From Leucothrix pacifica (GTDB lineage: Bacteria > Pseudomonadota > Gammaproteobacteria > Thiotrichales > Thiotrichaceae): 64,000 nucleotides of DNA. The stretch covers positions 62,001 through 126,000 of the forward strand of contig NZ_QGKM01000015.1 of the NCBI RefSeq assembly GCF_003172875.1. The letters are read 5' to 3'. Numbering within the stretch: position 1 is the stretch's first letter; each line of letters begins with the position of its first letter. The position numbers were made by a program, and so were the translations under genes. Below, piece after piece: positions 3,430-25,036 of the stretch. Under the pieces are notes generated by a model that was not told where the DNA came from, did not search any database, and was given only the letters and a program-made list of their open reading frames with translations.

Positions 3430-3432
3430 TTT

Positions 3433-4416
3433 ATGAGTAACTATTCCAAAGAAACTTTCGACCTAAAATACCCACACAAAGTAACTCTCGAACCAACAGG
3501 CTCGTGGACACAAAAACACTACTTACTAGACAAAAAATCCGCCTACGCGTTACAAATGGCACTCGCAACGAACCGTCCGCTGCTAGTAAAAGGCGAGCCG
3601 GGTTTAGGTAAAAGCTACCTTGCCTTAGCAGCTGCAGAATTACTAAACCGTGCTTTCATCGCTGAGGTAATAAACAGCCATACCGAAGGCCAAGAGTTAC
3701 TTTGGAAAGACGATCCAATCCAACGCCTAAGTGATGCTCAAGCAAAAATCAAAACAGGCGATGATTTACATCCAAAACGCTACATAAGCCCGAGTGTGCT
3801 GTGGTGGACATTTGATTGGGCTAACGCTGCAACACAATATGAACAATTGCATCATAAAGTTTATAAACCCGTCTGTGGGCATGCAAAAAACCGCAAAAAT
3901 GGACTTGTCGTATTAATCGACGAGATCGATAAAGCAGACCCATCATTGCCAAACAGTTTACTCGAAGTGCTAGGAAATAACGGTTTTGATGTTCCGCTGG
4001 CAAAAGTCAACGTCGGTCATCAAGGTATTGCGCCGCTTGTGATTATCACGACTAATGATGAACGTGAATTGCCGCCTGCATTTGTTCGTCGCTGCTTGGT
4101 TTTGCACTTAAAAATCCCTGATGGCACAAGCGATGATGGAAAAGATGAGTTAATCGAATGGCTAAAAGCACGTGTGCGTGTACATATCACGAAGGATCAG
4201 TGTAGCGATATTGTGCTGGATGAAGCCGCGAAACAGCTAAAAGAAGACCGGGAAAAAGCAGAAAGCCAAGGCATGATAAAAGCAGGACTTTCAGAGTATA
4301 TCGACTTGATTACCGCCTTAGTTGAAATGACTGAAGCAGGTGATAACCGAGAGACTGAACAACTCAAACTACTAGAAGAAATCAAGGAGTTCAGCCTACG
4401 TAAGGCGGATGCATGA
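3433..4416 (+). CDS. MoxR-type AAA+ ATPase
   Basis: The 327-residue protein is a single AAA+ module of the MoxR/dynein-like group. Walker A is GEPGLGKS (54-61) and Walker B is LVVLIDE (158-164). An arginine-finger-like segment, ELPPAFVRRCL, follows sensor 1. MoxR ATPases usually act with a von Willebrand A-domain partner to remodel or activate proteins. Here the next gene, which it overlaps by four bases (ATGA), supplies a vWA-like segment, so the pair probably forms the NTP-driven switch of the system. It follows the protease gene after only 3 bases. No clear Shine-Dalgarno sequence is needed if translation is coupled. Confidence 0.88.
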   Translation: MSNYSKETFDLKYPHKVTLEPTGSWTQKHYLLDKKSAYALQMALATNRPLLVKGEPGLGKSYLALAAAELLNRAFIAEVINSHTEGQELLWKDDPIQRLSDAQAKIKTGDDLHPKRYISPSVLWWTFDWANAATQYEQLHHKVYKPVCGHAKNRKNGLVVLIDEIDKADPSLPNSLLEVLGNNGFDVPLAKVNVGHQGIAPLVIITTNDERELPPAFVRRCLVLHLKIPDGTSDDGKDELIEWLKARVRVHITKDQCSDIVLDEAAKQLKEDREKAESQGMIKAGLSEYIDLITALVEMTEAGDNRETEQLKLLEEIKEFSLRKADA

Positions 4417-7253
4417 AGCTACAATCGCAAGTCAGTCGTGCGCAGTTATTAAGGGCTTGGAAAGAAAGCTCCGATGCTGAGTTGCGTGCTGACATCGCTG
4501 AGTTATTTGGTTACGAAGCATCTGAGAAATATCTGGGTGACTTGGATAAAGAGGATCATGAAGAGTCTCTGCCAAAAGAGAACGGGGGCGAAATCGACGA
4601 GCTAGCGCCCCTGCCATCTAAGAAATTAGACCCACCAAAACCCAGACCACAAGTCAGTTACTACTATTTAGCTGACCGTCAACGTTATGCAACCGAAGTT
4701 GAGGCTCAGCAAGAAACACCGCAAATATTTGATAGTGTAAAGACACTGAGTCGTGAAGAACTAAACAATTATTGGAAGTCTGAACCGCAAGATCCAACAG
4801 AGCCTGCACCGCTTACTCAAACAAGAACGCTGACGCCTTTTGTGCGTAAACAACTACGTCAAGCGGTAGGTCGTAATTTGGATGTGAAAACCTTGGTTAG
4901 ACAGGTTGCTAAACAAAGGCCACTAAAAGAATTACCCACACAACCGCGCTTACTACCAGCGGGTCGTGTAACGGTGATTGCTGACTTAAATGACCGCTTG
5001 CTGCCTTTTTGGGGTGACATACGTGATGCTTGTGAGTTGATTAAGCAAAAGCATGGAAAAATCGGCTTAGATATACGAGTGCTGGCAAGGGATGAAGCTG
5101 CGTGTGACTATTATGCTTATGACGACTGGGAGCAACGAAAACTCAAAACGCAGGCCTGGAAAAAGATACACGCTCAAAGCATGGTTTTCATTCTTAGTGA
5201 TTTAGGGCAATTAGCCGATCAAAGCAGTGTGATTCGTCGGCGTTGGTTACAGTTTGTTGTCACGTTAAACCGACGTGGAATCACACCTATTGTCTTGGCT
5301 CCAATCGCTGCTGCAAAACAGTGTCCAAAGCTACAAGCCAGAACACAGCTCATACTGTGGCAACGTTTCGGTCAACTCAACTCACGGCAAGTTCGTGGGG
5401 ATATCTCAAAACATCAAGAAAAAGTGGAGCGAGTACTCGCTTTTCTTTCCTTATCACCTCATATAGAACCAGAGCTATTACGTTCGCTGTGCGAGCTATT
5501 GGGAGCGCAAGAAGGGCAAAGTGGTATCGAAGCAGATGTCTACCTACACCCTGATGTGCAATGGGGTTATACGGCAATCACACTTCGAACAGAGAGACGT
5601 GAGCATTACCAAGCGCAGTTTGCAAAACAACCTCAAGCGCTTAAAAAGCAGGTACTGGATTGTATTGGTCAGCACCACGCTTCACAGTTTGCCTCTGTTT
5701 GGGCGGAGTCTATTTTAAATGCCGAAAAGCTGATGCAGGTTGATCAGGCAAGAGTGGATGAGGCTGAAGCACTCATGATGAGCTTGGCTAAAGGCTATAA
5801 CGAAGACCGTGACCATGACGGCATGATGCGCTTTGCCCGCCGTCATTTGTCACGTATGAGTGAGGCGCAGCTTGAAGACAAAAAGAGCAGCTACACTGCT
5901 GCTTTGTATTACTTGGCAAACCGTAAAGAGATAGATCAGGGGCACGCTGTTGAAAGTGAATACACGAACAAAACAGAAATCATTAACCAGTTAATGAAGC
6001 AGTCAGCACCAAAAAGGGAACTGGCTTTAAGGCAAGTTGGTTCTAAGTTATTTTTGGGTGATGAGGCCAAGCTCAAAGGTCAGTCGTTAACCGAGTTTAC
6101 AACGGTACAAAACAGCATTTTAGCGAATGGACAGAACACGCCCTTACTCGCAGGAAAGGCCGTGACGCTAGTTGGTGGCTCGAAGCACGAAGGCTTACTC
6201 GATAAGCTTCACCTAGACACGGGGCAAGAACACCTAATCATTCGTTCGTTGATAAAACCAAGTTGGGCAAGTGAAATCACTATGCGAGATGGTGTGCCTA
6301 TTACTGTACTGATTTTTGAAGGCAATTCGTATGAAATGCGTCCAGAGTGGCAAGATGAAAAGCTCAAGTGGCAGCCGGTAGAAGAGACTGAAAAGGTTGG
6401 TACTGATGAGTTTGGTTTGTTTGCAGAGTTTACTGTAAAAGGGGTGACGCAACGCCTTCGCTATATCGAGCCGACGACTTTTATGATGGGATCGCCTGAG
6501 AATGAAGATGGTCGTTACAACAACGAAGACTTGCATCAGGTCACGTTGTCCCAAGGCTATTGGTTAGCAGATACCGCTTGTACTCAAGAGTTATGGCAGA
6601 CAGTGACGGGTGACAATCCATCAGAGTTTAAAGATGACTCACAAAACCCTGTAGTGCAAGTGAGTTGGTTAGATACACAGCGTTTCATTCAACAGTTAAA
6701 ACAACTAACCCCGGAGCTTCTGGCTCATTTACCTACCGAGGCCCAGTGGGAGAATGCTTGCCGTGCAGGAACTGCGACGCCATTCTCTTTTGACGATGAT
6801 ATTAGCGTTGACCGCGTGAACTATCGTGATACATGGGAGCTAGAAAAAGAAGGTGAGGGTTTTAAGTGGGGCAAGGATGCTAAACAAAAAACGGCTCGCA
6901 TAAAGTCTTATGCCCCGAATGACTGGGGACTTTATGAAATGCATGGCAATGTATTTGAGTGGTGTTTTGATGAGTGGCAAGAAAATTTAGGTAATAGCTC
7001 GGTTATTGACCCCGTGACTGCTCGCTTTTCTAGCGCGGTAGCGCAAGAAAAACAGGCAGACAAAACAGGACAGTACGGTGGTTTCTACGATAGCGCTTTA
7101 TTAACTAATGCAGAAGAGGTTGGCGTGCAACGCGTGCTGCGTGGTGGCTCGTGGTACGGTCACGGCTGGAGCTGCCGCTCTGCTATCCGTTACCGGAACG
7201 ACGCGTCTAACCGCGTCAGGTTCTTCGGCTTCCGTATTGCTGTAGGTCTTTGA
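4413..7253 (+). CDS. vWA-like / FGE-sulfatase (CLec fold) protein, candidate DGR target
   Basis: The 946-residue protein has a charged N-terminal region (1-180). A Rossmann-like segment at about 183-345 begins VTVIADLND and is predicted to be a degenerate vWA domain: Asp191 is present but the usual DxSxS metal site is not intact. A helical middle follows. From about 684 to the end lies a formylglycine-generating-enzyme/sulfatase-modifying-factor domain of C-type-lectin fold (FMMGSPENEDGR, LPTEAQWENACRAGT, MHGNVFEWC, RVLRGGSW, GFRIAVG). In conflict systems this domain acts as a sensor for antigens rather than as an enzyme (family knowledge). Residues 907-946 have the codon pattern of a DGR variable region. 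The gene ends the four-gene operon and probably carries its recognition surface. Confidence 0.85.
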   Translation: MKLQSQVSRAQLLRAWKESSDAELRADIAELFGYEASEKYLGDLDKEDHEESLPKENGGEIDELAPLPSKKLDPPKPRPQVSYYYLADRQRYATEVEAQQETPQIFDSVKTLSREELNNYWKSEPQDPTEPAPLTQTRTLTPFVRKQLRQAVGRNLDVKTLVRQVAKQRPLKELPTQPRLLPAGRVTVIADLNDRLLPFWGDIRDACELIKQKHGKIGLDIRVLARDEAACDYYAYDDWEQRKLKTQAWKKIHAQSMVFILSDLGQLADQSSVIRRRWLQFVVTLNRRGITPIVLAPIAAAKQCPKLQARTQLILWQRFGQLNSRQVRGDISKHQEKVERVLAFLSLSPHIEPELLRSLCELLGAQEGQSGIEADVYLHPDVQWGYTAITLRTERREHYQAQFAKQPQALKKQVLDCIGQHHASQFASVWAESILNAEKLMQVDQARVDEAEALMMSLAKGYNEDRDHDGMMRFARRHLSRMSEAQLEDKKSSYTAALYYLANRKEIDQGHAVESEYTNKTEIINQLMKQSAPKRELALRQVGSKLFLGDEAKLKGQSLTEFTTVQNSILANGQNTPLLAGKAVTLVGGSKHEGLLDKLHLDTGQEHLIIRSLIKPSWASEITMRDGVPITVLIFEGNSYEMRPEWQDEKLKWQPVEETEKVGTDEFGLFAEFTVKGVTQRLRYIEPTTFMMGSPENEDGRYNNEDLHQVTLSQGYWLADTACTQELWQTVTGDNPSEFKDDSQNPVVQVSWLDTQRFIQQLKQLTPELLAHLPTEAQWENACRAGTATPFSFDDDISVDRVNYRDTWELEKEGEGFKWGKDAKQKTARIKSYAPNDWGLYEMHGNVFEWCFDEWQENLGNSSVIDPVTARFSSAVAQEKQADKTGQYGGFYDSALLTNAEEVGVQRVLRGGSWYGHGWSCRSAIRYRNDASNRVRFFGFRIAVGL
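7131..7253 (+). repeat. Candidate DGR variable region (VR) at the 3' end of the FGE gene
   Basis: Codons 914-940 contain TAC, GGT, CAC, AGC, ATC, TAC, AAC, GAC, AAC, GTC, TTC and TTC at positions that in DGR targets derive from AAC or AAT template codons by adenine mutagenesis. Eleven of these twelve end in C, unlike the A/T-ending codons in the rest of the gene. The fixed frame RVLRGGSW ... CRSA ... GFR is that of CLec-fold DGR targets. No template repeat or reverse transcriptase is in the window, so this rests on codon pattern and domain context. Confidence 0.65.
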
Positions 7254-11994: not shown

Positions 11995-12069
11995 TGCTGT
12001 CAAAAGCTGATATTTATAAATCGTTTACGGTAGAATAGCCGATTGTTCGAACCTCAGTGAAAGGCCGCT

Positions 12070-13626
12070 ATGTCAAACCAACCCGACGCACCTCATAGTT
12101 TTGCACGTTTTGAATTGCACCCCTGTTTATTGGATGCGATTAATGCGCAAGGTTTTGATCGCCCGATGCCGATTCAGGGCCGCGCGATCCCTAAAATCAT
12201 CGAGGGGCGTGATGTTTTAGCCAGTGCAGAAACCGGTAGCGGTAAGACTGCAGCTTATGTATTGCCTTTACTACAATCGCTACTTGAGCAGCGTCTGGAA
12301 GAGGGCGTGAATGCCGCTAAAGGTCACCATATCCGTGCTTTGATTCTGGTGCCGACGCGTGAGCTGGCTTTACAGGTATCTGAAGTAGTGGGTGAGCTTG
12401 GCTCTAAAATGCGGCCCGCAGTGCGTTGCACCAGCGTATATGGTGGTGTGGATGTCAACGTTCAGGCCAGCGCATTAGCGCATGGCGTCGAGGTCTTGGT
12501 AGCAACACCTGCACGTTTATTGTCGCTAATTAATGCTAAAGCGGTTGTGTTTAACAAGCTGCGTACTTTGGTGCTGGATGAGGTTGACCGGCTAATTAGC
12601 AGTGACTTTCAGGATGAAGTGGAAACGATCCTTAAGCACCTGCCAAACAAGCGACAGAATCTGTTTTTTACCGCCACATTCCCTGATTCCATTCGTGATT
12701 TAGTGCGTAAAGTGCTGAACAATCCCGAGGTCATCGACATTCCGCTGGCGTCTAAAATTCTCATCGATCAGCACGTTGCGACGGTGAATCTGCGCGATAA
12801 AGTGGCTGCTTTGGGGTATTTATTAAAAGAAAATGATTGGCATCAGGTGTTGGTGTTTGCCACTACTAAAAAGAGCTGTGATGAGCTTGTGAAGGCATTG
12901 AAGTCCTTAGATGTGGATGTGCTTGGGTTGCATGGCAATATCCCGACAGATCAACGTGAAGAGGCGTTAGCGCTGTTTAAACGCGGTAAGTTACGGGTCT
13001 TGGTTGCGACGGATATTGCGGCACGCGGTTTGGATATTGGTCAGCTGGACTGTGTGATTAATTTTGAATTACCCCGTCAGGCAAATGACTATCAACATCG
13101 CATCGGGCGTACTGGTCGTGCCGGTAAGACAGGGCAAGCAATCAACTTAGTAGCGCACCATGAATTGGCGCACTTTGAAGCCATCGAGAAATACAATCAG
13201 GAACGCTATCCCAGAGAAGTGATTCCGGGGTTTGAGCCGGATGAGATTGCACCACCGCCACCATCACGTCGTAAGCCAAAGAAGGTGGTTGGTAAGAAGC
13301 GTAAAGCGAAACAAAAAGCGAGTCTTAAGAAGCAGCGGACTAAAAAGCCATTCGGCTCAGGTGAGGGTATCAGCAAGTCAGAAAGTTCCGGGCCTTATAA
13401 GACGACTGCTCAGCGAAATGCAGAGAAAGCTGACGCTGAAACGTCTTACAAAGAGCCTAAAGGCGCGGCGTTTTATGGCAATCCAGTGGCCTCAAAAAAG
13501 CCAAGTCTGTACAAAGGCTCATCGGGTGATGCGCCAACTGCGGACTCAAAGCGTCAGTCGTCTGAAAAAGACGGTGATAGTGATCCGAAGCCTTCTTTTT
13601 ATAAGAAAGCTCCGGACTCTGAGTGA
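12070..13626 (+). CDS. DEAD-box RNA helicase, RhlE-like, with DEVD in motif II
   Basis: The 518-residue protein has a two-lobed helicase core (about 8-375) and a long basic, low-complexity tail. Motif I reads ASAETGSGKT, motif Ia PTRELA, motif V ATDIAARGLD and motif VI HRIGRTGRAG. Motif II is DEVD and motif III is TAT, both departures from the usual DEAD and SAT. The tail is rich in Lys, Ser and Pro (GKKRKAKQKASLKKQRTKK) and should bind RNA nonspecifically. Such helicases act in ribosome assembly and RNA decay. ATG follows GAAAGGCCGCT. It is monocistronic as far as can be seen. Confidence 0.88.
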   Translation: MSNQPDAPHSFARFELHPCLLDAINAQGFDRPMPIQGRAIPKIIEGRDVLASAETGSGKTAAYVLPLLQSLLEQRLEEGVNAAKGHHIRALILVPTRELALQVSEVVGELGSKMRPAVRCTSVYGGVDVNVQASALAHGVEVLVATPARLLSLINAKAVVFNKLRTLVLDEVDRLISSDFQDEVETILKHLPNKRQNLFFTATFPDSIRDLVRKVLNNPEVIDIPLASKILIDQHVATVNLRDKVAALGYLLKENDWHQVLVFATTKKSCDELVKALKSLDVDVLGLHGNIPTDQREEALALFKRGKLRVLVATDIAARGLDIGQLDCVINFELPRQANDYQHRIGRTGRAGKTGQAINLVAHHELAHFEAIEKYNQERYPREVIPGFEPDEIAPPPPSRRKPKKVVGKKRKAKQKASLKKQRTKKPFGSGEGISKSESSGPYKTTAQRNAEKADAETSYKEPKGAAFYGNPVASKKPSLYKGSSGDAPTADSKRQSSEKDGDSDPKPSFYKKAPDSE

Positions 13627-13668
13627 AACATCAGCCTGATAAATCAGACTGATTTGTTGGTGTGATGA

Positions 13669-14394
13669 TTACTGGATACGAACCGCACGGCAGCAGCCAT
13701 TTAGCTCTTCACCACGAATCATCGCCTTCACACGGTAGTGCACATTCTGTTTAGACAATGTGTGGAAGCATTGCTTGGTGTATTTAACCGTCATGTCTGC
13801 CTGAGACTGGCCATTTGAGCTTTTAAGCACCGTTTTCATCGCCGTGTTCCAGCGGTTACGGTCTTGCTGCTGATGAATGATCGGTAGCATACCAAGTGGC
13901 TGTCCGCGAAGATTGACATCCAATGCCTCTCCTGTGTGCACAATCACTCTCCAGAATGGGCTCATATTGCCGCACTCCAGTACCCATTTACCTTTTGAAC
14001 CGGGTGCTGCAGGTGTACGTGCAACGGCCGGGCGTGGCGCGACTCTGGCTGGTGCTGGTGCGACGGCTCGTGGTGCAGCGGGTCGGGGAGCCTGAGCCGT
14101 TTGCATTGGGCGAATGTAACGTTCACTTACCCAGCCAGTGTTTCCTTGCCAGGTGACTTTAGTCCAAACAGTGCGACCGACTGACACGCGTTGGCCTGTG
14201 CTGCGAACATATTTACCATTATGCGGGATTTTAGCGACGACGGGGTTTTTCGTGCCGGGTTTGCTGCGCATATTGAGCGAGTCATTGCTCGCGACGCCCT
14301 GAATTTGAAATACGGCTGCCTGAGCCATTTGAATTGACAGAAGTGTAGCGGCTGCTACTAATCCTGCACGTCCCAATAAAGTGCTGATTTTCAT
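13669..14394 (-). CDS. Exported SH3b-domain protein
   Basis: The 241-residue protein starts with a signal peptide (about 1-26, cleavage after AQA). A bacterial SH3 domain follows at about 30-95 (SLNMRSKPGTKNPVVAKIP ... GWVSERYI), which usually binds cell-wall peptides. An Ala/Pro-rich linker (97-130) leads to a C-terminal domain of about 110 residues with Cys pairs (LECGNMSPFW, KQCFH, NGCCRAV) that resembles the secreted COG3650 group. It is probably periplasmic. The upstream co-oriented gene encodes a second SH3b protein, but a strong terminator separates them. Confidence 0.75.
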   Translation of the reverse strand: MKISTLLGRAGLVAAATLLSIQMAQAAVFQIQGVASNDSLNMRSKPGTKNPVVAKIPHNGKYVRSTGQRVSVGRTVWTKVTWQGNTGWVSERYIRPMQTAQAPRPAAPRAVAPAPARVAPRPAVARTPAAPGSKGKWVLECGNMSPFWRVIVHTGEALDVNLRGQPLGMLPIIHQQQDRNRWNTAMKTVLKSSNGQSQADMTVKYTKQCFHTLSKQNVHYRVKAMIRGEELNGCCRAVRIQ

Positions 14395-14411
14395 TTAAAC
14401 CGTCCTTAATT

Positions 14412-14453
14412 TAAATATAAAAAGCCCCGAAACAAGTGCTTGTTAACGGGGCT
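14412..14453 (-). terminator. Intrinsic terminator between the two SH3b genes
   Basis: On the minus strand AGCCCCG and CGGGGCT (14423-14429 and 14447-14453) pair. An inner stem, AACAAG/CTTGTT, extends the hairpin, which is followed by TTTTTATATTT. It lies downstream of the His-repeat gene and just upstream of the second SH3b gene. Confidence 0.85.
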
Positions 14454-14586
14454 AAGATTGGGGTCGAACTCACAGGGGTATTGTTATTGCGTTACAGATA
14501 ACAAGTCGCTGAGTATTTTCCCATCTGTAAACTGACCGACTGCCTAATAAGGGCGATAACTGAGTTATTCGCCCTTGTGCAGTCAA

Positions 14587-15825
14587 TTAACGCTGCCCAC
14601 CGTAAGTGTGGCTGTGTTGGTTGGCGCCGTTCGGATGTGTGTGTGTCACCGAGTTCGTCAAATTGTTCGCAGGGTGTCTGTGAGTATTGGCAGAATTCTG
14701 TGATACCTGTGCTGTTACCGCCTGGCGTGGAGGAAGCAAGAAGTCATGTACGTGTACGCCTGCACCACCAGCATGGGTATGCTGAGTTTGCTTGTTGTAA
14801 GGCGAAGAAGGATGAATGTGAGTCACTAACTGAGTGCCTGTGTTCACTACCTGACGTTGTTGCTGTACTTGTTGTGCCTGACGCTGCCCACCGTAGTTAT
14901 GGCTATGCTGTGCACTACCGCTGGCGTGTGTATGCGTCACTGCGTTAGTGAACTGGTTACGTGGATGCGTATGTGTGTTTGCATTGGTCTGTGTGACAGC
15001 GCGAACCTGAACTTGAGGCTGCTGTACCTGACGCTGTCCACCGTAGTTGTGCTTGTGCTGTGAACTGCCACTTGCGTGAGTATGAGTCACGGCATTAGTG
15101 AACTGGTTACGTGGATGCGTGTGCGTGTTTGCATTGGTCTGTGTAGCAGCACGAACCTGAACTTGTGGACGTGGCTGTTGAGTAGCCTGTCCCTGACAGC
15201 TGTAACGGTGTGTATGTTGATTGGCACCGTTTGGATGCGTGTGTGAAACCGAGCGTGTGCAAGGGTTAGCAGGGTGAGTATGTGTGTTGGCGGTATTGGC
15301 AGGACGTTGCTGAACAACCTGAGTAGGTCGCTGCTTCGTTGTAATTGCCGGCATGCCGTTACCCGGTCCAACATATACGCTGCGAACAGTCCCTGTACCG
15401 GCATCATAGATATCACCAGTACGCTGAGTAACCTGAGTGCTGTAGTTCGGGGTGTTGATGTAAGTCTGAGTGGTCGTCGTTTGTGTTGCAACCGGTGCTG
15501 GCGGCGTATAAGTGTAATCAGTCGCAAGGTAGCGCTTGTTGATCCAGCCGTTAACACCATTCCAGTTTATTTTAATCCAGGTAGAGCGACCAGTCTGTAC
15601 TTGCTCGCCATCGCTGTTGATTCCACTACCGTTCGATGGGATTTCACCAATGATCGTACTTCTGGCATTTGGCTCAGAACGAATATTCAATGTATCCCAG
15701 CTTTCTACACCCGATACGATATAACGCTCAGAGGCTGCAGTCGCTTGATTCATCGCCGCGACACTAATGCAAAGAGCAATACCAGAGACAGACGCTGCCT
15801 GTTTCAGTCGATTAAATACATTCAT
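14587..15825 (-). CDS. Exported SH3b protein with five His-rich repeats
   Basis: The 412-residue protein has a signal peptide (about 1-30, cleavage after TAA or ATA), an SH3b domain at about 34-102 (TLNIRSEPNARSTIIGEIP ... NGWINKRYL) and a Thr/Gln-rich linker. Residues 180-412 hold five repeats of the pattern THxHPxxxxxxxxxHTHxxGxxxHxH, each with three HxH pairs: 30 histidines in all. The second and third units are near-identical over 50 residues. The repeats suggest binding of zinc, copper or nickel in the periplasm or at the surface; that is inference. I know of no characterised protein with this layout. Confidence 0.75.
   Translation of the reverse strand: MNVFNRLKQAASVSGIALCISVAAMNQATAASERYIVSGVESWDTLNIRSEPNARSTIIGEIPSNGSGINSDGEQVQTGRSTWIKINWNGVNGWINKRYLATDYTYTPPAPVATQTTTTQTYINTPNYSTQVTQRTGDIYDAGTGTVRSVYVGPGNGMPAITTKQRPTQVVQQRPANTANTHTHPANPCTRSVSHTHPNGANQHTHRYSCQGQATQQPRPQVQVRAATQTNANTHTHPRNQFTNAVTHTHASGSSQHKHNYGGQRQVQQPQVQVRAVTQTNANTHTHPRNQFTNAVTHTHASGSAQHSHNYGGQRQAQQVQQQRQVVNTGTQLVTHIHPSSPYNKQTQHTHAGGAGVHVHDFLLPPRQAVTAQVSQNSANTHRHPANNLTNSVTHTHPNGANQHSHTYGGQR
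14879..15178 (-). repeat. Tandem duplication of a 150-base unit in the His-repeat gene
   Basis: The segments 14879-15028 and 15029-15178 encode the 50-residue stretch from PQVQVRA to GGQRQ with few changes. They share long identical runs, for example GTGAACTGGTTACGTGGATG and GCATTGGTCTGTGT. The other three units are more diverged, so this looks like a recent internal duplication. Confidence 0.75.
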
Positions 15826-16212
15826 AAAATTATTCCTTTCCCTGTTTAATATTTACTTTATAGGAGACATTATAAGGTTTGAATCGAGGCCGCTGAATCA
15901 GTTTTACCAGTGGAATGCAACGATTTCCATACACTTCTTGTAATTATATTATAGTGCTAAGCGAGCAAAATCAATGATTTGCACTGCCTTTGTTATAAAC
16001 CTATGTATTTTTAGCGTGTAGATGTTCTAGTTGTAAGGTTGAAACCTAAAAAGGATGTTAATAATCAGCCTACTTAATATTGATGCCGTGATAAATAGAC
16101 TTTGCTTATTACATGGGCTGAGGTGAGTAACCACCATGCGCAATATAGCAATGATATAGCTAGGAAGCTGCTATGATTCCACGTTTAATAACATAAGTAT
16201 ATGAGGTAAATC
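15826..16212. other. Divergent intergenic region between the His-repeat gene and cobU
   Basis: This 387-base AT-rich segment should hold the promoters of both divergent genes. No open reading frame of note and no cobalamin-riboswitch box could be found. The GAGG at 16203-16206 serves cobU translation. Confidence 0.5.
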
Positions 16213-16734
16213 ATGCCGCTTACACTAGTATTGGGAGGTGCCCGATCGGGTAAAAGTCGTTATGCCGAAACATTGGCGTCAAATACCGCCCAAACGGTAA
16301 TTTATGTGGCAACGGCACAAGTGCATGATGCTGCCATTGAAAAGCGCGTTGCACTGCACAAAGATAGCCGTCCGGCAGAGTGGCAGACGGTTGAGAGTCC
16401 ACTTCAGCTAGCAAGCACTTTGGAGTCGCTGGCTCATGATAAGGTAACCTTGTTGGTAGACTGTTTGACGATGTGGGTTACCAACTGCTTATGTGCTGAA
16501 GACAACATCCTTATTTCGCAGGAAATAGATGCTTTCAAAAAGGTACTGCCCACACTGTCAGGTGACATTATTTTAGTAAGCAATGAAGTGGGGCTGGGGG
16601 TTATCCCGATGGGTGAGTTGACGCGTGACTATGTTGATACCGCGGGCAAGCTTCATCAAGACATTGCAGCTCAGGCAGACAACGTTGTTATGGTCGTTTC
16701 AGGTTTACCGATGGCATTTAAAGGTGTTGTCTGA
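16213..16734 (+). CDS. cobU: Adenosylcobinamide kinase / GTP:cobinamide-phosphate guanylyltransferase
   Basis: The 173-residue protein has the size and motifs of CobU. The P-loop GGARSGKS lies at residues 8-15, followed by RYAETLAS. The segments YVATAQ, VDCLTMWVTN and SNEVGLGVIP are family hallmarks. CobU phosphorylates adenosylcobinamide and then transfers GMP to it, in the nucleotide-loop assembly of vitamin B12. No other cob gene lies in the window, so this copy is isolated and may serve salvage. A GAGG sits 6 bases before the ATG. Confidence 0.92.
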   Translation: MPLTLVLGGARSGKSRYAETLASNTAQTVIYVATAQVHDAAIEKRVALHKDSRPAEWQTVESPLQLASTLESLAHDKVTLLVDCLTMWVTNCLCAEDNILISQEIDAFKKVLPTLSGDIILVSNEVGLGVIPMGELTRDYVDTAGKLHQDIAAQADNVVMVVSGLPMAFKGVV

Positions 16735-16791
16735 CTCGTGATTGCAGGCCTTGCCGTCCGTCTAGTGGTTGCTTACTTTTAGTCCTATACA

Positions 16792-16814
16792 GTTATCATT
16801 CACTCAATGATAAC
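16792..16814 (+). promoter_or_regulatory. Perfect palindrome upstream of the TIR gene
   Basis: GTTATCATT (16792-16800) and AATGATAAC (16806-16814) form a perfect 9-bp inverted repeat around CACTC. It ends 17 bases before the TIR gene ATG. A TATACA-like -10 overlaps or precedes it. It could be an operator or an RNA hairpin in the leader. Confidence 0.5.
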
Positions 16815-16831
16815 AATAAAGGAATGAGCGG

Positions 16832-17362
16832 ATGACTGATCTATACATTACCTATGGCCTGCGCGAATCCATGTGGGTTAATAAACTGGTCTCTTTATTG
16901 GATGCTGAGGGCTACACAGTCTTTTGGGAGCACGCTGTAGCTCCGGGTGCTGATGTACGTTCTGAAGAGAGTATTCAGGCGCTCACCGATGCTAAATGTG
17001 TGCTGGCTGTCTGGTCTGATACGGCGGTAGATGACTTTTGGGTTTTGTCTGACGCTGAACGAGCGCTGGAGCAAAAAAAGTTGATCTCATTGGTTGCAAA
17101 GTCCGCGGTGATTCCAAGAGCCTTCAGGCAGATTGAAACGATCTTCACTCAGCATTGGGATGTTAAGACGAAAGAAGAAAAGGTGTTTACCAGGTTGCTG
17201 GAGAGTATTGCGGCTTTCACCGAATCTAGTCAGCCACGACGTTCTGACAGAGAGCAAGAAAGAATAGCGCGCCAGCAACGAATGAAGGCGGAGAGTGAGC
17301 GTCGTCGTCAGCAGGTATTGCAGAGAGAAGTAAGAGCGCAGCAGCGCCGAACTACGGTATAG
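16832..17362 (+). CDS. Stand-alone TIR-domain protein with basic coiled tail
   Basis: The 176-residue protein has an N-terminal TIR domain (about 1-130): strand A DLYITYGLRE, the BB-loop region WEHAVAPGADV, strand C CVLAVWSD and the helix WVLSDAERALEQKKLISLVA. Bacterial TIR domains often cleave NAD or make NAD-derived signals in antiphage defence. In an ungapped alignment with W-V-x-x-E families, the catalytic glutamate position is Asp74; Glu76 lies two residues later. Residues 133-176 are a basic, Arg/Gln-rich helix likely to form a coiled coil or bind nucleic acid. No partner gene is adjacent. Enzymatic activity is therefore uncertain. Confidence 0.75.
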   Translation: MTDLYITYGLRESMWVNKLVSLLDAEGYTVFWEHAVAPGADVRSEESIQALTDAKCVLAVWSDTAVDDFWVLSDAERALEQKKLISLVAKSAVIPRAFRQIETIFTQHWDVKTKEEKVFTRLLESIAAFTESSQPRRSDREQERIARQQRMKAESERRRQQVLQREVRAQQRRTTV

Positions 17363-17483
17363 AGTTATCCACTGCAGCTGTGGATATAGTTGTTAGTAGT
17401 GCTGCAAAATGCACTCTGGCCCTAGTGATTATGGGGCTCTAAGCGAATTGATTAATTTTTGATCTATGTGGTTTGGAAAGTCC

Positions 17484-17515
17484 ATGCGTTGCCCCCAATG
17501 TCAGAGGCAACGCAT
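17484..17515 (-). terminator. Hairpin downstream of glgP
   Basis: ATGCGTTGCC and GGCAACGCAT are a perfect 10-bp inverted repeat 12 bases after the glgP stop. There is no strong T tract. It also lies at the convergent end of the TIR gene and may stop transcription from both sides or stabilise the mRNA end. Confidence 0.6.
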
Positions 17516-17526
17516 AGCGATAAGTC

Positions 17527-20019
17527 TTAACCGCTTACCGTTTCAAGTTTCCAGATATCGTTGTTGTACTCTTCCATCGTACGGTCAGTCGAGAAGAAAC
17601 CACTCTTTGCCGTATTGAGAATACTCATGGTTTGCCACTTTTCCTGATCCTGCCAGACGGCAGACACTTGCTGCTGCATATCAACATAACTGCGGAAGTC
17701 AGCCAGCGTCATCCAAGGGTCATGTGGGTTCATCAACGTATTCATAATGTTGTCGAATATACCCGGCTCGTTAGAGTTGAAGTGACCCGAACGAAGCAGG
17801 TTAAGCACGTCACGCAAGTCTTCATCGTGATTGATGTAATCAGATGGATTGTAGTGGGGTTTCAGCTCTTCAACTTCATTTTCGCGTAAACCGAATAAGA
17901 AGAAGTTATCTTCGCCGACCGCATCCATAATTTCGATGTTAGCGCCATCATAAGTACCGATGGTCAGCGCACCGTTCATCATGAACTTCATGTTACCAGT
18001 ACCAGAAGCTTCTTTGCCCGCGGTAGAGATCTGCTCTGATAAATCGGCCCCTGGCGCAATGATCTCCATAGACGACACATTGTAGTTGGGTAGGAATGCC
18101 AACTTAAGCTTGTCAGAAACTTCAGCATCGCTATTAACGACTTCAGCAACACTGTTGATCAGCTTGATGATGTCTTTAGCCAGTAGGTAACCTGGCGCAG
18201 CTTTACCACCAATCAGCACGCAACGAGGACTCCAGTCCTTGGTGTTGCCTTTTTTGATTTGGTTGTATAGGTGAATCACGTGTAGCACGTTTAATAGCTG
18301 ACGCTTGTATTCGTGAATACGTTTTACCTGTACGTCAAACATCGCATCCGTGTTGAAATCAACGTCACACTTTTCTTTTACAAGCTTAGCCAGACGCATT
18401 TTATTGGCTTGCTTGACGGCCTTCCAGTTGTTGCGGAACTCTGTTTGTTTAAGGTCAGCAAATGGCGTCAGCTTGTCGATCTGTGATAAGTCCTTAATCC
18501 ATTCATCGCCAATCTTGCTACTGATCAGTTCTGTCATCATAGGGTTCGCATGTGCAACCCAACGACGTGGTGTGACACCATTGGTTTTATTGTTAAATTT
18601 CTCAGGCCATAGTTCGTAGAAATCGTGGAATAAGCCTTTCTTCAGTAGCTCAGAGTGAAGCGCTGCCACACCATTGATTGAGAAGCTACCAGCGATGGCC
18701 AGATGCGCCATGCGCACATGTTTCACCGGACCTTCTTCAATAATTGACATGCGGGATTGGCGATCGGTGTCACCAGGCCAACGCTGAGAAACAACTCTCA
18801 GGAAGCGGCTGTTGATTTCATAAATGATATCAAGTAAGCGAGGTAGCAGTTCTTCGAAGAGTTTTACCGGCCACTTTTCCAGCGCTTCTGGCAGCAGAGT
18901 ATGGTTGGTGTACGCCAGCGATTCGGTAACGATTCTCCATGCAGTATTCCAGCCCATTTTCTTCTCATCCATTAGAATACGCATCAACTCAGCCACCGCG
19001 ATGGTTGGATGAGTGTCATTCATTTGGAAGACATTCTCTGCAGAGAATCTTGAGTAGTCAGGCGCACCGTCAAAACGTTTTTCCCATTGGCGGATAACAT
19101 CCTGAATACTGGCGGATGCAAGGAAGTACTGTTGCTTTAAGCGCAACTCTTTTCCATTCTCAGTCGTGTCGTTTGGGTACAGTACCATTGAGATATTTTC
19201 TGCACTGTTTTTAGCGCCGACTGACTCGGTGTAACTACCGGAATTAAACTCATCGAGATTAAACTCGTCAGTGGCTGTTGAGTGCCACAAGCGCAGTGTA
19301 TTAACAGTGTTGTTGTGATAACCCGTCACTGGCATATCATAAGGAATGGCAATGACGTCATTAGTTTCAACCCATTGTGCAACGAGCTGACCCTGGTCAT
19401 TTTTGCGGTACTCAGTGTGACCACCAAATTTGATGCGTTGTGAGTATTCCGGGCGCTCGATTTCCCACGGTTGGCCATCACGTAGCCAGTGATCCGGCTC
19501 CTCGTCTTGGTAACCATTGATGATTTCCTGACGGAACATGCCGTACTGGTAGCGAATACCATAGCCGGTGACCGGTAGTTGCAGAGTGGCGCAACTATCC
19601 AGGAAACACGCCGCTAAGCGACCCAGTCCACCATTACCTAGACCTGCATCAGCTTCTGCTTCGATGACGTCTTCTAAGTGGAAAGACATTGATTCCAGCG
19701 CTGCACGCGTATCTGGTTCTATGTCGAGGTTTAGTAGGTGGTTACCCAGTGCACGGCCAATCAGGAACTCCAGCGACATGTAGTTTGCACGTCGGACTCC
19801 CGGCATTTTTTGAGCCAGGCTGGTGTTACGCCAGTCTGCCATAATACGATCACGTAATGTCAGGCTGAGTGCGTTGTAAGCGTAGGTTGGCGTTGTGCCG
19901 GTACTACGACCTAAAAAGTATGTGAGGTAATGATTAAAGCTAGCTTCTAGTGCCGTTTTGTCAACAGATAAACGCTCCATGCGCGGTCTATACTGTTTAT
20001 CTTCGTCTGTGTGGCCCAT
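17527..20019 (-). CDS. glgP: Glycogen/maltodextrin phosphorylase
   Basis: The 830-residue protein has the full length of GlgP/MalP enzymes, which release glucose-1-phosphate from the ends of alpha-1,4-glucans. The pyridoxal-phosphate site is seen in EASGTGNMKFMMNGALTIGT near residue 670. The N-terminal GLGNGGLGRLAACFLDS and the segment VFQMNDTHPTIAVAELMR are typical. It is the last gene of the minus-strand glycogen operon, 39 bases after glgA, so synthesis and breakdown are cotranscribed. It could prefer maltodextrin or glycogen; the operon favours glycogen. Confidence 0.95.
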   Translation of the reverse strand: MGHTDEDKQYRPRMERLSVDKTALEASFNHYLTYFLGRSTGTTPTYAYNALSLTLRDRIMADWRNTSLAQKMPGVRRANYMSLEFLIGRALGNHLLNLDIEPDTRAALESMSFHLEDVIEAEADAGLGNGGLGRLAACFLDSCATLQLPVTGYGIRYQYGMFRQEIINGYQDEEPDHWLRDGQPWEIERPEYSQRIKFGGHTEYRKNDQGQLVAQWVETNDVIAIPYDMPVTGYHNNTVNTLRLWHSTATDEFNLDEFNSGSYTESVGAKNSAENISMVLYPNDTTENGKELRLKQQYFLASASIQDVIRQWEKRFDGAPDYSRFSAENVFQMNDTHPTIAVAELMRILMDEKKMGWNTAWRIVTESLAYTNHTLLPEALEKWPVKLFEELLPRLLDIIYEINSRFLRVVSQRWPGDTDRQSRMSIIEEGPVKHVRMAHLAIAGSFSINGVAALHSELLKKGLFHDFYELWPEKFNNKTNGVTPRRWVAHANPMMTELISSKIGDEWIKDLSQIDKLTPFADLKQTEFRNNWKAVKQANKMRLAKLVKEKCDVDFNTDAMFDVQVKRIHEYKRQLLNVLHVIHLYNQIKKGNTKDWSPRCVLIGGKAAPGYLLAKDIIKLINSVAEVVNSDAEVSDKLKLAFLPNYNVSSMEIIAPGADLSEQISTAGKEASGTGNMKFMMNGALTIGTYDGANIEIMDAVGEDNFFLFGLRENEVEELKPHYNPSDYINHDEDLRDVLNLLRSGHFNSNEPGIFDNIMNTLMNPHDPWMTLADFRSYVDMQQQVSAVWQDQEKWQTMSILNTAKSGFFSTDRTMEEYNNDIWKLETVSG

Positions 20020-20058
20020 TGATTAAAAATTCCTTTGAATCTATGTTTTAGTGTGTTG

Positions 20059-21513
20059 TTAGTGATAGAGGGATAAATATTGTGAGGCACTGTTGTGCCA
20101 TCCGAAATCCTTTCGCATTCCGGTTTGTTGTAATCTTTCCCAGAGTGGTTTGTCTTGATAAAGATGAAGCATGTGCTGCATCGTAGCAATAAACGCATTG
20201 GTGTCTGCTGAATACATCACGAAGCCATTAGCGGTGCCATCTTCGATCGTTTCATCCGTGACATTGACAACAGTGTCGGCTAAGCCGCCAGTGAAGTTAA
20301 CCACGGGTAAGGTACCGTAGTGCAAGCTGTACATCTGGTTAAGTCCGCACGGTTCAAAACGGGATGGCATGAGGAAAACATCACTGCCTGCCTCTACCAT
20401 GTGTGCGGTTTCTTCTGAATACCCGAGGTAGCAGAAAACACGCGTTGGGTAGCGGTCACGCAATTTCTGTATGACTTGCTCGTAGTATGGATTGCCTGAT
20501 CCCATAAGCATGAAGTTGGCATCACTCTGATTGATCAACGTAGGGATAGCCTGTGTGATTAAATCCACACCTTTTTGCTCGACCAGACGGGTCACCATTC
20601 CCATTAACGGCGCTTCCATCATGGCGTCGGTGACGTGATCAACATGCTTTGCAAGTAGGGCGCGTTTGTTATCGCTCTTGCCCGGTTGAACCTGATCTGC
20701 CGAGTAATGATGCGGTAGATAAGGATCTGTCTGTGGATTCCAGACATCGTCATCAATGCCGTTGAGAATTCCGGTCAGCTTGTATTGGCGGGCAGATAAA
20801 ATACCCTCCATACCATGCCCAAACTCGGCACTACAAATCTCTTTGGCATAAGTGGGACTGACGGTGGTGATGGCATCAGAGTAAATAATTCCCGCCTTAA
20901 GCATGGAAAATCCACCGTAGAACTCAACACCTTCTGAAGACCACCACACATTCGGTAGTCTCATTTCATGAAACTGTTGTTCTGAAAAGTGACCGCCATA
21001 AGCGAGATTATGAATCGTGAAGATACGCTTAGGTGGTTCCGGATGCTCTTCCAAAAAGGCAGGAATCAAGCCGCACTGCCAGTCATTGGCATGTACGACA
21101 TCAGCTTTCCAGTCTTTAATGACATGGCCTGTCGCGATTTGTGATACGGCCCACGCAAACTGAGTAAAGCGCTCAGCATTATCAAACCAATCCTGTCCTT
21201 CCTGATTAACATATGGATTACCGGGACGGTCAAACAAAGCCTGACAATCAACCAACCAGAAAGGGGTCTTTATGGCCTTATGCTTTGCTTCAAGCAGGCG
21301 TATGGATGGTGTGAAATAGCCATAAGGCGAATCCATCCAGCCGAGGATTTTAATCTCATCACACGAAGCCAATACATCACGGTAGGCCGGCATAATGATT
21401 TTTACATCTTCTCCGGCCTCCTGAAGTGCATGTGGCAGGCTGTAGGCGACATCACCTAAGCCGCCGGTTTTGACAACAGGCCAGACTTCACTACTGGCAA
21501 ACAATATGTTCAT
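20059..21513 (-). CDS. glgA: Glycogen synthase (ADP-glucose type)
   Basis: The 484-residue GT5 glycosyltransferase extends alpha-1,4-glucan with ADP-glucose. KTGGL, the ADP-glucose site, lies at residues 16-20 in the N-terminal lobe. The C-terminal lobe carries PSRFEPCGLNQMYSLHYGT, with the retaining glutamate. Its ATG overlaps the glgB stop by four bases, indicating coupling. Length equals that of enterobacterial GlgA. Confidence 0.95.
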   Translation of the reverse strand: MNILFASSEVWPVVKTGGLGDVAYSLPHALQEAGEDVKIIMPAYRDVLASCDEIKILGWMDSPYGYFTPSIRLLEAKHKAIKTPFWLVDCQALFDRPGNPYVNQEGQDWFDNAERFTQFAWAVSQIATGHVIKDWKADVVHANDWQCGLIPAFLEEHPEPPKRIFTIHNLAYGGHFSEQQFHEMRLPNVWWSSEGVEFYGGFSMLKAGIIYSDAITTVSPTYAKEICSAEFGHGMEGILSARQYKLTGILNGIDDDVWNPQTDPYLPHHYSADQVQPGKSDNKRALLAKHVDHVTDAMMEAPLMGMVTRLVEQKGVDLITQAIPTLINQSDANFMLMGSGNPYYEQVIQKLRDRYPTRVFCYLGYSEETAHMVEAGSDVFLMPSRFEPCGLNQMYSLHYGTLPVVNFTGGLADTVVNVTDETIEDGTANGFVMYSADTNAFIATMQHMLHLYQDKPLWERLQQTGMRKDFGWHNSASQYLSLYH

Positions 21514-23675
21514 TTAACCACCTTTAAGAACAGTGCGCCAAGTGGCGGCAGAGTTAATGCAATGGACTGCTCAAAGCCCATCCATGCTGTGTCTTCTGAC
21601 TCTATCAGGCCGCTGTTGCCACAGTTACTACCGCTGTAGTAAGACGAGTCTGTGTTCAGAATCTCTTGATACTCACTGGCATCGGGTACGCCGATACGAT
21701 AGTTTTCGCGAGGCACCGGTGTGAAGTTAAACAAGCAGATAATGTAATTGCCTTCTTCATCCTGACGGATCAGGGAAAGGGTTGACTGATCCGAGTCGTT
21801 ACAATCAATCCAGCGGAAACCATCGTGTGAGAAATCAAGCTCATGCAGCGCTGTTTCTTCGCAGTAGAGTTTGTTCAAATCGGCTACTAAACGAGACACG
21901 CCTTGGCGGTCTTCTTCCTGCGCAGCATGCCAATTTAGCTGGCCCAGCTCGTTCCATTCTTCAGGCTGTGAGATTTCACCACCCATAAACATGAGTTTCT
22001 TACCAGGATGTGCATACTGCCAGGCGTAAAACAGGCGCTGGTTCGCCAGTTTTTGCCAGCGGTCACCAGGCATTTTATCAAACAGGCTGTACTTACCATG
22101 CACTACCTCATCATGAGACAGCGGCAGTACAAAGTTTTCACTGTAAGCATACACTTGGCTAAAGGTCAGCTTGTTGTGGTGATACTTGCGGTGAACCGGA
22201 TCATTCTCGATGTAGTCAAGATTGTCATTCATCCAGCCCATATTCCACTTCATAGTGAAACCGAGCCCACCGAGTTCGATAGGACGGGATACCATCGGCC
22301 ATGAGGTAGACTCCTCAGCCATAGTCAGTGCGCCGGGTGCTTCCTGATGCACAATGCGGTTCATTTCCTGAAGGAAGGCTACCGCCTCAAGGTTTTCACG
22401 CCCGCCAAACTCATTCGGCAGCCATTCACCGTGATCACGGTCATAGTCCAGATACAGCATCGAAGCAACCGCATCTACCCGTAAGCCATCGATATGGAAT
22501 TCTTGTAGCCAGTACAGTGCATTTGCCAATAAGAAGTTACGAACTTCATTGAGTCCGTAGTTGAAAATCAGGGTGCCCCATTCTTTGTGTTCACCTTTGC
22601 GGGTGTCAGCATGTTCATAGAGTGCATCGCCATTGAAGCGTGCCAGCGCAAAGCTATCTTTCGGGAAGTGAGCAGGCACCCAGTCGATAAACACACCAAG
22701 GCCATTTTGGTGACAACGATCGATAAAGGTACGGAACTGATCCGGTGATCCTAAACGTGACGTTGGCGCGTAAAAACCAGTAACCTGATAACCCCAGGAT
22801 TGATCCAGCGGATGCTCTGTGATGGGCATTAGCTCGATATGCGTATAGCCCATTTCTTTAACATAAGGAATCAGGCGATCGGCTAACTCTTCCCAGTTAT
22901 AAAATTCTTCCGGGGCAGGGCGTTGCCATGAACCCGCATGCACTTCATAAATACTGATTGGCTTATGCTGCCAGTCAAAGTTAGCACGTTGCTCCATCCA
23001 CTCCTGATCCTGCCAGCGATAGGTGTCATCAGCAACGATGCGCGAGGTGGTATCAGGGCGCAGTGCCATTTCACGGGCATACGGGTCGGTCTTAATGAGG
23101 AGTTGACCATCTTTGGACAGCAACTCATATTTGTAGTGCTCACCGGGATTGAGGCCGGGGATGAATATTTCCCACAAACCTGAACCGCCCAAGGCACGCA
23201 TAGGATGGCAACGTCCGTCCCAGCGATTAAAGTTACCGACTAAGCTGGCGCGCTTAAGCGACGGAGCCCACAGTACAAACAGGCAACCTTCAACACCATC
23301 AATCGTTTTTAGATGAGCACCCATAAAACGGTACGCATGGTTGTGCTTGCCTTCGCTAAACAGGTGAATATCTAACTCATCAGTCTGCGGTAAAAAGGAG
23401 TAGGGTGAGTACTGCTCATGCCACTCTGAAGTGTGCTTGTCCAACCATTTCAGTTGGTAATGACTGCCTACTTCAAATGATTCATCCAGTGCTACTTCAA
23501 AAAAGTCAGTCCCTTCAAGACGCTTCATAGGCGTGTCTTGATTAAACATTACTTCTTCAGCGTTGGGCATAAACTCACGAACTAACGGTAATCCTTTGGC
23601 ATTTTTCTGATAACCCAGTACCAAAAACGGGTCGTGTAAAATACCTTCCTGCAATGCTTTCATGGTCATATTCAC
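21510..23675 (-). CDS. glgB: 1,4-alpha-glucan branching enzyme
   Basis: The 721-residue GH13 enzyme introduces alpha-1,6 branches in glycogen. It has N-terminal CBM48-type modules (about 15-215, with YKYELLS and KTDPYA), the TIM barrel with GLRVDAVASMLYLDY (nucleophile Asp) and MAEEST (acid/base Glu), and LPLSHDEVVHGK. The 721-residue length fits the long enterobacterial class with two N-terminal domains. It overlaps malQ by four bases upstream and glgA by four downstream. Confidence 0.95.
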   Translation of the reverse strand: MNMTMKALQEGILHDPFLVLGYQKNAKGLPLVREFMPNAEEVMFNQDTPMKRLEGTDFFEVALDESFEVGSHYQLKWLDKHTSEWHEQYSPYSFLPQTDELDIHLFSEGKHNHAYRFMGAHLKTIDGVEGCLFVLWAPSLKRASLVGNFNRWDGRCHPMRALGGSGLWEIFIPGLNPGEHYKYELLSKDGQLLIKTDPYAREMALRPDTTSRIVADDTYRWQDQEWMEQRANFDWQHKPISIYEVHAGSWQRPAPEEFYNWEELADRLIPYVKEMGYTHIELMPITEHPLDQSWGYQVTGFYAPTSRLGSPDQFRTFIDRCHQNGLGVFIDWVPAHFPKDSFALARFNGDALYEHADTRKGEHKEWGTLIFNYGLNEVRNFLLANALYWLQEFHIDGLRVDAVASMLYLDYDRDHGEWLPNEFGGRENLEAVAFLQEMNRIVHQEAPGALTMAEESTSWPMVSRPIELGGLGFTMKWNMGWMNDNLDYIENDPVHRKYHHNKLTFSQVYAYSENFVLPLSHDEVVHGKYSLFDKMPGDRWQKLANQRLFYAWQYAHPGKKLMFMGGEISQPEEWNELGQLNWHAAQEEDRQGVSRLVADLNKLYCEETALHELDFSHDGFRWIDCNDSDQSTLSLIRQDEEGNYIICLFNFTPVPRENYRIGVPDASEYQEILNTDSSYYSGSNCGNSGLIESEDTAWMGFEQSIALTLPPLGALFLKVVK

Positions 23676-25036
23676 TGATCGATCTCCTTCCGATGGTGTT
23701 GGGTCACTGTGCGCGCGATCTCACTGGGTAGTGAGTCTGGTATATCTTGCCACTGAAAGCGCCAGAGCCAATTATTATCAACTGTACCAGGTGTATTCAT
23801 ACGGGCCGAACTGTCGAGTTTCAAAAAATCCTGAAGTGGAATGATGGCAAGGTTGCCTTTGGTTGCGAATGTTTCATCTATCATCGCGCTGCAAATGTCA
23901 TCCGTTTTTTCTTGTTTCAAACGTTCCCATACGAAATCTTGTTCGCTGGTTTCCAATGTAGTGTACCAGCCTAACGTGGTGTCATTGTCGTGGGTCCCGG
24001 TGTAGACCACGCGATTACTCACAATGTTCTCGGGTTTATGAGGGTTGTCCTCAAACCCATCGAACGAAAACTGCAGAACGGACATGCCGGGCAACTCAAA
24101 TTGATCGCGCAGAGCAATGACTTCCGGAGTGATTAGTCCTAAGTCTTCTGCCACGATCGGCACATCACCTAAGCGTGCTTTGAGTGCGGCCAGTAAGTCT
24201 TCACCGGGTACTTCTTCCCAGTAGCCGTCAATGGCGGTCGGGCATTTTGCGTCGATCATCCAGGTCGCCTGAAGGCCTCGGAAGTGATCGATACGTACAA
24301 TATCAAACAAACGGTAGTGGTGCTCCATGCGCTGCATCCACCATTCAAAGCCGGTTGTTGCCAAATGCTTCCAGTCGTAATGTGGGTTGCCCCAGCGTTG
24401 TCCTGTTTCTGAGAAATAGTCTGGTGGAACACCGGCTACCAGCGCTGGCTGCCCATGTTCATCTAGTAAGAAGCATTCCCGGTGTGCCCATACATCGGCA
24501 CTGTCATGAGCGACAAAAATCGGCATATCACCGAATAAGTAAATACCCCGATCCGTAGCGGCTTGTTTTACTTGTTGCCAGCGTTTATCGAGCTGAAATT
24601 GTTGCCAGGTGATTGCCTGAATCTCATCGGCTGAGTCAGCGTGTAATTGATGAATTGCAGCCTCGTCGCGGTCTTTGTATTGCTGAGGCCAGTCATACCA
24701 AGGGAGTTGTTGGTATTTCTCTCTTAAAATGCAGTAATCCGCATAGTCTGTTAGCCAGAAGCGTTGTTGCTCGCACCAGCTTTTGTAATCTTCGTTATCC
24801 GGATTAATGTCACTGTCATCATCAAGCAACGCAGGATTCATCGCAAACGCGGAGTTACATAAATAGGGTGAGAAGCTATGTTGTGGAACCCCTAAAGGTA
24901 AAACCTGCCAGACACTGAGGTCAGCGCTTTTCATGAAATCAAGCCAATGGATCGCTTGTTCATCAATTTTGCCTGATGGCAAAGAGGTCGGATGGAGCAA
25001 TACGCCAGCACGGCGTTGCTTTAATGGGTTATTCAA
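23672..25036 (-). CDS. malQ: 4-alpha-glucanotransferase (amylomaltase)
   Basis: The 454-residue GH77 enzyme transfers alpha-1,4-glucan segments between chains. The N-terminal GVLLHPTSLPSG is a hallmark. The nucleophile lies in VRIDHFRGL, the acid/base in VAEDLG and a third acidic residue in GTHDNDT. It is shorter than the roughly 500-residue plant DPE1-type enzymes and lacks the large N-terminal extension of E. coli MalQ. In this operon it probably recycles short maltodextrins left by phosphorylase. It overlaps glgB by four bases. Confidence 0.92.
   Translation of the reverse strand: MNNPLKQRRAGVLLHPTSLPSGKIDEQAIHWLDFMKSADLSVWQVLPLGVPQHSFSPYLCNSAFAMNPALLDDDSDINPDNEDYKSWCEQQRFWLTDYADYCILREKYQQLPWYDWPQQYKDRDEAAIHQLHADSADEIQAITWQQFQLDKRWQQVKQAATDRGIYLFGDMPIFVAHDSADVWAHRECFLLDEHGQPALVAGVPPDYFSETGQRWGNPHYDWKHLATTGFEWWMQRMEHHYRLFDIVRIDHFRGLQATWMIDAKCPTAIDGYWEEVPGEDLLAALKARLGDVPIVAEDLGLITPEVIALRDQFELPGMSVLQFSFDGFEDNPHKPENIVSNRVVYTGTHDNDTTLGWYTTLETSEQDFVWERLKQEKTDDICSAMIDETFATKGNLAIIPLQDFLKLDSSARMNTPGTVDNNWLWRFQWQDIPDSLPSEIARTVTQHHRKEIDQ

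Follow-up and report, generated by a model that had tools for sequence, protein, structure and literature searches.

The pneumococcal polyhistidine triad protein PhtD is a surface protein with repeated histidine motifs that binds metal (Zn) and has a partner gene for uptake, AdcAII (PMC3842936, consulted in part). Exported metal capture has also been described for the anglerases, which use an N-terminal histidine on a folded domain. DUF4198 is a secreted nickel-binding protein with a Kd of 18 nM, HupE/UreJ-2 permeases bear an N-terminal-His capture domain, and these proteins share an AH-type N-terminal start (PMC12537917, in part). Histidine-rich loops, by contrast with exported repeats of fixed spacing, are His-rich segments tied to Ni handling in a membrane exporter, where the loop is predicted to be cytoplasmic (PMC11247825, in part). 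We analyzed a histidine-repeat gene of Leucothrix pacifica in a window of 64,000 nucleotides, i.e., the whole stretch of DNA under study. Literature searches for Thiotrichaceae, Leucothrix, Cocleimonas, or SH3b combined with a periplasmic metal repeat returned, in the records consulted, no histidine-rich protein of this design; the literature on Leucothrix and histidine was judged not relevant from titles and abstract openings.

The gene (14587..15825, minus strand) codes for a protein of 412 residues, P0001, composed of a signal peptide, an SH3b domain, a linker and five six-histidine units. The signal peptide, approximately residues 1-31 (15733..15825, minus strand), was located by a crude hydrophobicity rule and by eye, as was cleavage near ATA-A; its hydrophobic segment has an Ala-rich end, and a helix is predicted at residues 3-28 in the structure model. 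Residues 44-100 (15526..15696, minus strand) match Pfam SH3_3 (PF08239) with an E value of 2.5e-9, and the score of 37.6 bits passes the curated cut-off of 27. Both features had been named in the initial annotation, and its proposal of a periplasmic or cell-wall location agrees with this layout, that of a putatively exported protein with a cell-wall type anchor. In the explanation that we favor, the protein is exported to the periplasm, and the SH3b domain, recognized by sequence, would hold it at peptidoglycan, as expected from its domain family.

All five units are encoded on the minus strand. Unit 1, residues 182-206 from the first to the sixth histidine (H1 to H6; 15208..15282), is of the Cys type with C189 and C210. 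Units 2 (residues 235-259; 15049..15123), 3 (residues 285-309; 14899..14973) and 5 (residues 382-406; 14608..14682) are Cys-less, unit 3 being a near-duplicate of unit 2, and unit 4 (residues 336-360; 14746..14820) is a variant, HIHP...YN...HTH.GG..VH.HDFL, that Leucothrix orthologues retain. They are joined by Gln/Thr-rich linkers. The interval first assigned to the feature, 14590-15288, does span the five units, but the gene itself extends to 15825.

The pattern THxHP-x9-HTHxxGxxxHxH, reported to occur five times, was found exactly at residues 181, 234, 284, 335 and 381 with zero mismatches. P0001 has exactly 30 histidines (15 CAT and 15 CAC codons), and every one lies within the 15 HxH pairs that had been counted. 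When the 236-residue tail was shuffled 2000 times, the triple-pair motif appeared 1 time in total, against five real copies, and HxH pairs averaged 3.6 with a maximum of 11, against 15 in the natural tail. The closest named relative is Leucothrix arctica, with 63% identity across the best segment, which spans the full length. Between the two proteins none of the 30 histidines has been lost, 13 of the 30 His codons have changed silently, and 74 of the 200 other aligned tail residues differ.

By sequence, the six-histidine unit is a mobile domain of ~31 amino acids. It gave no match in Pfam, NCBIfam, PHROGs or the PDB apart from composition-like ones; the impression that no characterized family has this design thus holds for the libraries searched. 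DUF1771 (PF08590) matched 2 of 43 unit proteins at E values up to 0.001, one of them over a His unit with 36 bits versus a curated cut-off of 28.7; it was judged composition-like, has no match in P0001, and was rejected as the identity of the unit. A unit-family profile, A1, was built from 43 units, and on the L. pacifica genome it matched the five P0001 units with E values from 1.8e-16 to 2.5e-10 and the six histidines at fixed positions. As the A1 units had been picked by their His pattern, His invariance within A1 is by construction, and the conservation claim therefore rests on profile searches, whose profile itself derives from A1; one of the locus-finding patterns, moreover, contains an H-x-H-P stretch. 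Searching the ORFs of the collected loci gave 175 matches, 166 of them distinct and 152 near full length, and all six histidines were present in 152/152 of the latter. Of the 14 shorter matches, ten retain all six histidines and two were attributed to chance (L039 and L040); the sixth histidine is missing from the other two, L003 and L063, each of which has a Cys ahead of H1. The spacing of the histidines, which had been proposed for verification in other genomes, is strict, with all six intact in 162 of the 164 distinct real units, short matches counted. In a control with histidines replaced, units minus three His were still found by the profile (weakest E value, 8.2e-6), so units that had lost histidines would not have escaped detection in the proteins concerned.

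Other positions of the unit are less strict: P5 and Y28 (90% each), N7 and T10 (84% each), G20 (78%) and C9 (70%). Of the 152 near-full units, 106 have both C9 and a cysteine within positions 28-31, 46 lack both and no unit has just one, a distribution whose p-value is inflated by the kinship of the units. Because this co-occurrence is perfect, we infer a disulfide, and the pair fits such a bond in an oxidizing compartment. The initial annotation had overlooked both the shared, mobile nature of this domain and the disulfide-like Cys pair, which ~70% of units have, among them unit 1 of P0001.

Architectures were compared in 43 proteins, P0001 and 42 proteins from the loci found by the pattern scan described below. 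The units are carried, one to six per protein, on proteins predicted to be exported: SH3b, PG_binding_1 or OmpA proteins, or lipoproteins. Crude rules detected a hydrophobic N terminus in all 43 and a lipobox in 18, and L104, read from a later start, looks to be the nineteenth. The anchors include SH3_3 (22 proteins), PG_binding_1 (5) and SH3_4 (3), and L018 has two units ahead of an OmpA domain and a BON domain near its N terminus. Three more unit proteins are encoded on other contigs of the L. pacifica genome; one is a PG_binding_1 lipoprotein and the other two are short. The PG_binding_1 lipoproteins of L003 and L110-L114 have tandem QVAGG/SQQVAGSS repeats directly after the lipobox. These repeats gave a weak match to the ice-binding beta-roll model LbR_Ice_bind (E value, 3e-4; 1 of 43 proteins), and this and similar matches among the unit proteins were judged composition effects. 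A DUF4846-like exported protein is encoded after the PG_binding_1 His lipoprotein (L006, 1323-2570; L110, 4790-6079), and its gene lies between apparent atpC and glmU in the L. pacifica and related genomes.

The unit profile detected the unit in 51 of 63 genomes and all eight genera of the family of Leucothrix, Cocleimonas and Thiothrix, with most members of one genus (g2) having lost it; a search at the level of the order gave the identical 63 genomes. When 398 genomes from across the phylum were searched, that of L. pacifica included, four matched: L. pacifica itself and three weak ones (L039, L040 and L041) that were judged, on inspection by eye, to be chance. The 397 other genomes thus provided no convincing unit outside the family with this profile. 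A scan with short peptide patterns taken from A2, covering one genome each for 84,980 species, yielded 38 loci, of which 36 were titled Leucothrix, Cocleimonas, Thiothrix or Thiotrichaceae, one 'Proteobacteria bacterium' and one 'Aquificaceae bacterium'. The last label is likely wrong, because this locus (L085) has neighbor clusters in common with L088 and L101. The scan patterns favor the Cys subtype, so Cys-less units can be missed. One weak query for viral copies, with single-protein patterns, returned none. In the genomes searched, the unit occurs almost only in one bacterial family, the Thiotrichaceae.

AlphaFold2 modeled the single unit, from an alignment of 88 units, as a hairpin across the first two HxH pairs, with a mean pLDDT of 69.8 and a pTM of 0.34. 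In the model of full-length P0001 (16 sequences), the SH3b domain reached a pLDDT of ~95, and the same two-strand hairpin was predicted in all five units at mostly 50-64, with linkers mostly below 50. A fold search with the single-unit model found no match; with the full model the Foldseek matches listed were SH3-type domains, endolysin SH3b domains at the top (best E value, 2.4e-3). The models, of only moderate confidence, suggest that the units fold weakly or in dependence on metal, more than that the tail is simply disordered, the outcome that the initial annotation had named as refuting.

The reading that we favor, and that we hold to be somewhat better than an even bet, is that the units are modules, anchored in the envelope, that bind a divalent transition metal and act as a reversible buffer or a capture antenna. 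Each unit would probably form a beta-hairpin of two HxH strands with the third HxH pair nearby, and several imidazoles on one face would ligate divalent transition-metal ions, one or two per unit; in the Cys subtype the unit would be closed by the disulfide. Several units on flexible linkers would provide a high-capacity, reversible metal buffer or capture antenna at the envelope, and related lipoproteins would carry units to a membrane. In Leucothrix, Zn, Ni, Co and Cu are possible candidates for the metal. The metal store or sensor proposed in the initial annotation is partly supported, with an uptake aid as a further possible role.

Counting against this reading, the neighbors of the gene itself are not metal transporters, and upstream CobU is the sole loosely related one. 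In Leucothrix a divergent cobU lies on one side, and an SH3b paralogue and then a helicase gene lie on the other. The paralogue (13669..14394, minus strand) is the next gene, has a different C terminus and no His units, and keeps its place after the His gene in the orthologous loci of Leucothrix. A small TIR-domain protein with an Arg-rich C terminus (TIR_2; E value, 4e-11) is encoded at 16832-17362 of the window (plus strand), and in further loci of Leucothrix a TIR-like gene, identified by eye, adjoins cobU (cluster c11). Apparent glycogen-metabolism genes (phosphorylase, synthase, branching enzyme and 4-alpha-glucanotransferase), also identified by eye, occupy 17527-25036 (minus strand) beside the locus.

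Alignment of five Leucothrix upstream regions revealed a conserved promoter-like block (15940..16001, minus strand) composed of a TTTATAACAAA element, TGCAAATC.TTGAT and TATAAT. The GGTTTATAACAAA element that precedes the SH3b-His gene (~15989-16001, minus strand) is also present ahead of a Thiothrix gene of the same architecture (L106, 3865). Upstream of the P0001 gene and 42 related genes, Zur box scores were at shuffle level, and Fur box matches reached at most 14 of 19, a count with no shuffle control. No riboswitch was detected at 12000-20000 of the window or in eight related loci, and neither a sensor-type domain nor a metalloregulator box was found.

The examination of gene neighbors that had been suggested did connect one related gene group to metal-uptake genes. 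Six of the 38 loci (L089, L092, L097, L098, L104 and L105, the hupE of L105 being assigned from cluster membership and start sequence only) have a divergent hupE, DUF4198 and then a His lipoprotein, and another small His lipoprotein is encoded in four of the six. The lipoprotein beside DUF4198 and HupE/UreJ carries three to six units. As the DUF4198 orthologues of these loci are only 47-70% identical, the gene order is old, and an AH junction follows the signal peptide in DUF4198 and permease alike in all six. Searches across the family listed 26 DUF4198 places; compared by hand, at least 6 of them, all from genus g5, have a unit no more than ~0.5 kb away. Because DUF4198 and HupE/UreJ adjoin the His lipoprotein, the arrangement suggests Ni/Co capture in these Cocleimonas-type species, where one lipoprotein would probably work beside the two partners.

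Whether this extends to the units at large, which would then capture Ni or Co and pass it to DUF4198 and the N-terminal-His HupE/UreJ permease, is a separate matter, and we consider such a general role rather unlikely. The conserved gene order and AH junctions of the six loci argue for it, as do the urease and two DUF4198 genes of L. pacifica, of which one is next to a CbiM-like gene and the other forms a divergent pair with an AHE permease-like gene, as judged by eye. However, the metal-locus linkage is confined to one lineage, and L. pacifica has neither a HupE_UreJ_2 match nor a NiFe hydrogenase and keeps its His-unit genes and DUF4198 genes on separate contigs. In L117 (L. pacifica, C88), the divergent pair at 2561-4129 and 4159-4980 codes for an exported AHE-start permease-like protein and DUF4198, with no His-unit gene adjoining; the AHE-start protein was not matched in the PF13795 search.

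Nickel enzymes did not track the unit either, in a tally made by hand of 46 genomes with a completeness of 90% or more and a contamination of 5% or less. Urease was present in 18/36 genomes with the unit versus 6/10 without (Fisher p, 0.73), and NiFe hydrogenase, counted over the cut-off only (leaving out weak matches in G032 and G034), in 18/36 versus 9/10 (Fisher p, 0.03, in the opposite direction). Both comparisons are confounded by kinship, because nine of the ten genomes without the unit come from one genus. NiFe hydrogenase was found in none of seven Leucothrix genomes. A general service to nickel enzymes is therefore not supported, as unit presence follows neither urease nor hydrogenase in the 46 genomes; nickel may be right for the Cocleimonas-type branch and is not established for P0001.

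Uptake of excess Cu or Zn by the tail in the periplasm, as detoxification or redox protection, would suit the high His capacity and the Cys pair of most units, but no copper or zinc efflux genes occur among the scanned neighbors, and we regard this role as unlikely. Leucothrix-type bacteria are filamentous and form rosettes, and metal-His cross-links between envelope proteins might stiffen the wall or holdfast. The constant placement of units on exported proteins, most of them anchored to the wall or a membrane, several unlinked unit genes per genome and copy numbers of 1 to 6 are compatible with such a structural or adhesive function; it is nonetheless quite improbable, as small lipoproteins with one or two units would cross-link poorly and genus g2 has mostly dispensed with the unit. 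A pH-responsive or polyanion-binding His tail that binds no metal would agree with the low-confidence structure, the Gln/Thr-rich linkers and the basic residues common between the histidines of Cys-type units, but is highly improbable, as the fixed six-His geometry with P5, N7, T10, G20, Y28 and paired Cys exceeds the needs of a charge tail.

A broader proposal, possible though distinctly more tentative, is that the unit is an unreported, lineage-restricted mini-domain of ~31 residues with three HxH pairs, often disulfide-stapled and placed on many anchors, that forms an envelope-wide tunable metal buffer and was recruited in one lineage as a third partner of DUF4198 and HupE/UreJ. If correct, the envelope proteins of a sulfur-linked filamentous family share a small, modular unit that binds metal and is missing from the searched family libraries. 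It would offer a metal site of 31 residues that is easy to test, with more than 160 natural variants, with and without the disulfide, and a new partner for recently described nickel-capture proteins.

By analogy, P0001 would resemble other His-repeat metal-binding surface proteins without being a Pht member by motif or profile. Like PhtD, it has repeated His motifs on a putatively exported protein. Unlike Pht, it belongs to other bacteria and the units use other anchors, HxxHxH is absent from P0001, which has no His-to-His step of 3, and Pfam Strep_his_triad was not matched by P0001 to an E value of 1 or by the 43 units to an E value of 5. The anglerase domains DUF4198 and HupE/UreJ-2 are neighbors of one six-His branch and share its presumed task of exported metal capture, but the units have internal HxH pairs and no sequence match to them, and mature P0001 starts near ...ATAASERY (cleavage by eye), with a first residue other than His. 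The histidine-rich loops share a His-rich segment and, unlike P0001, sit in a membrane exporter. P0001 is akin to bacterial SH3b cell-wall proteins in its SH3_3 domain, and differs from the others in having, instead of a lytic or other enzyme domain, the histidine tail as its cargo.
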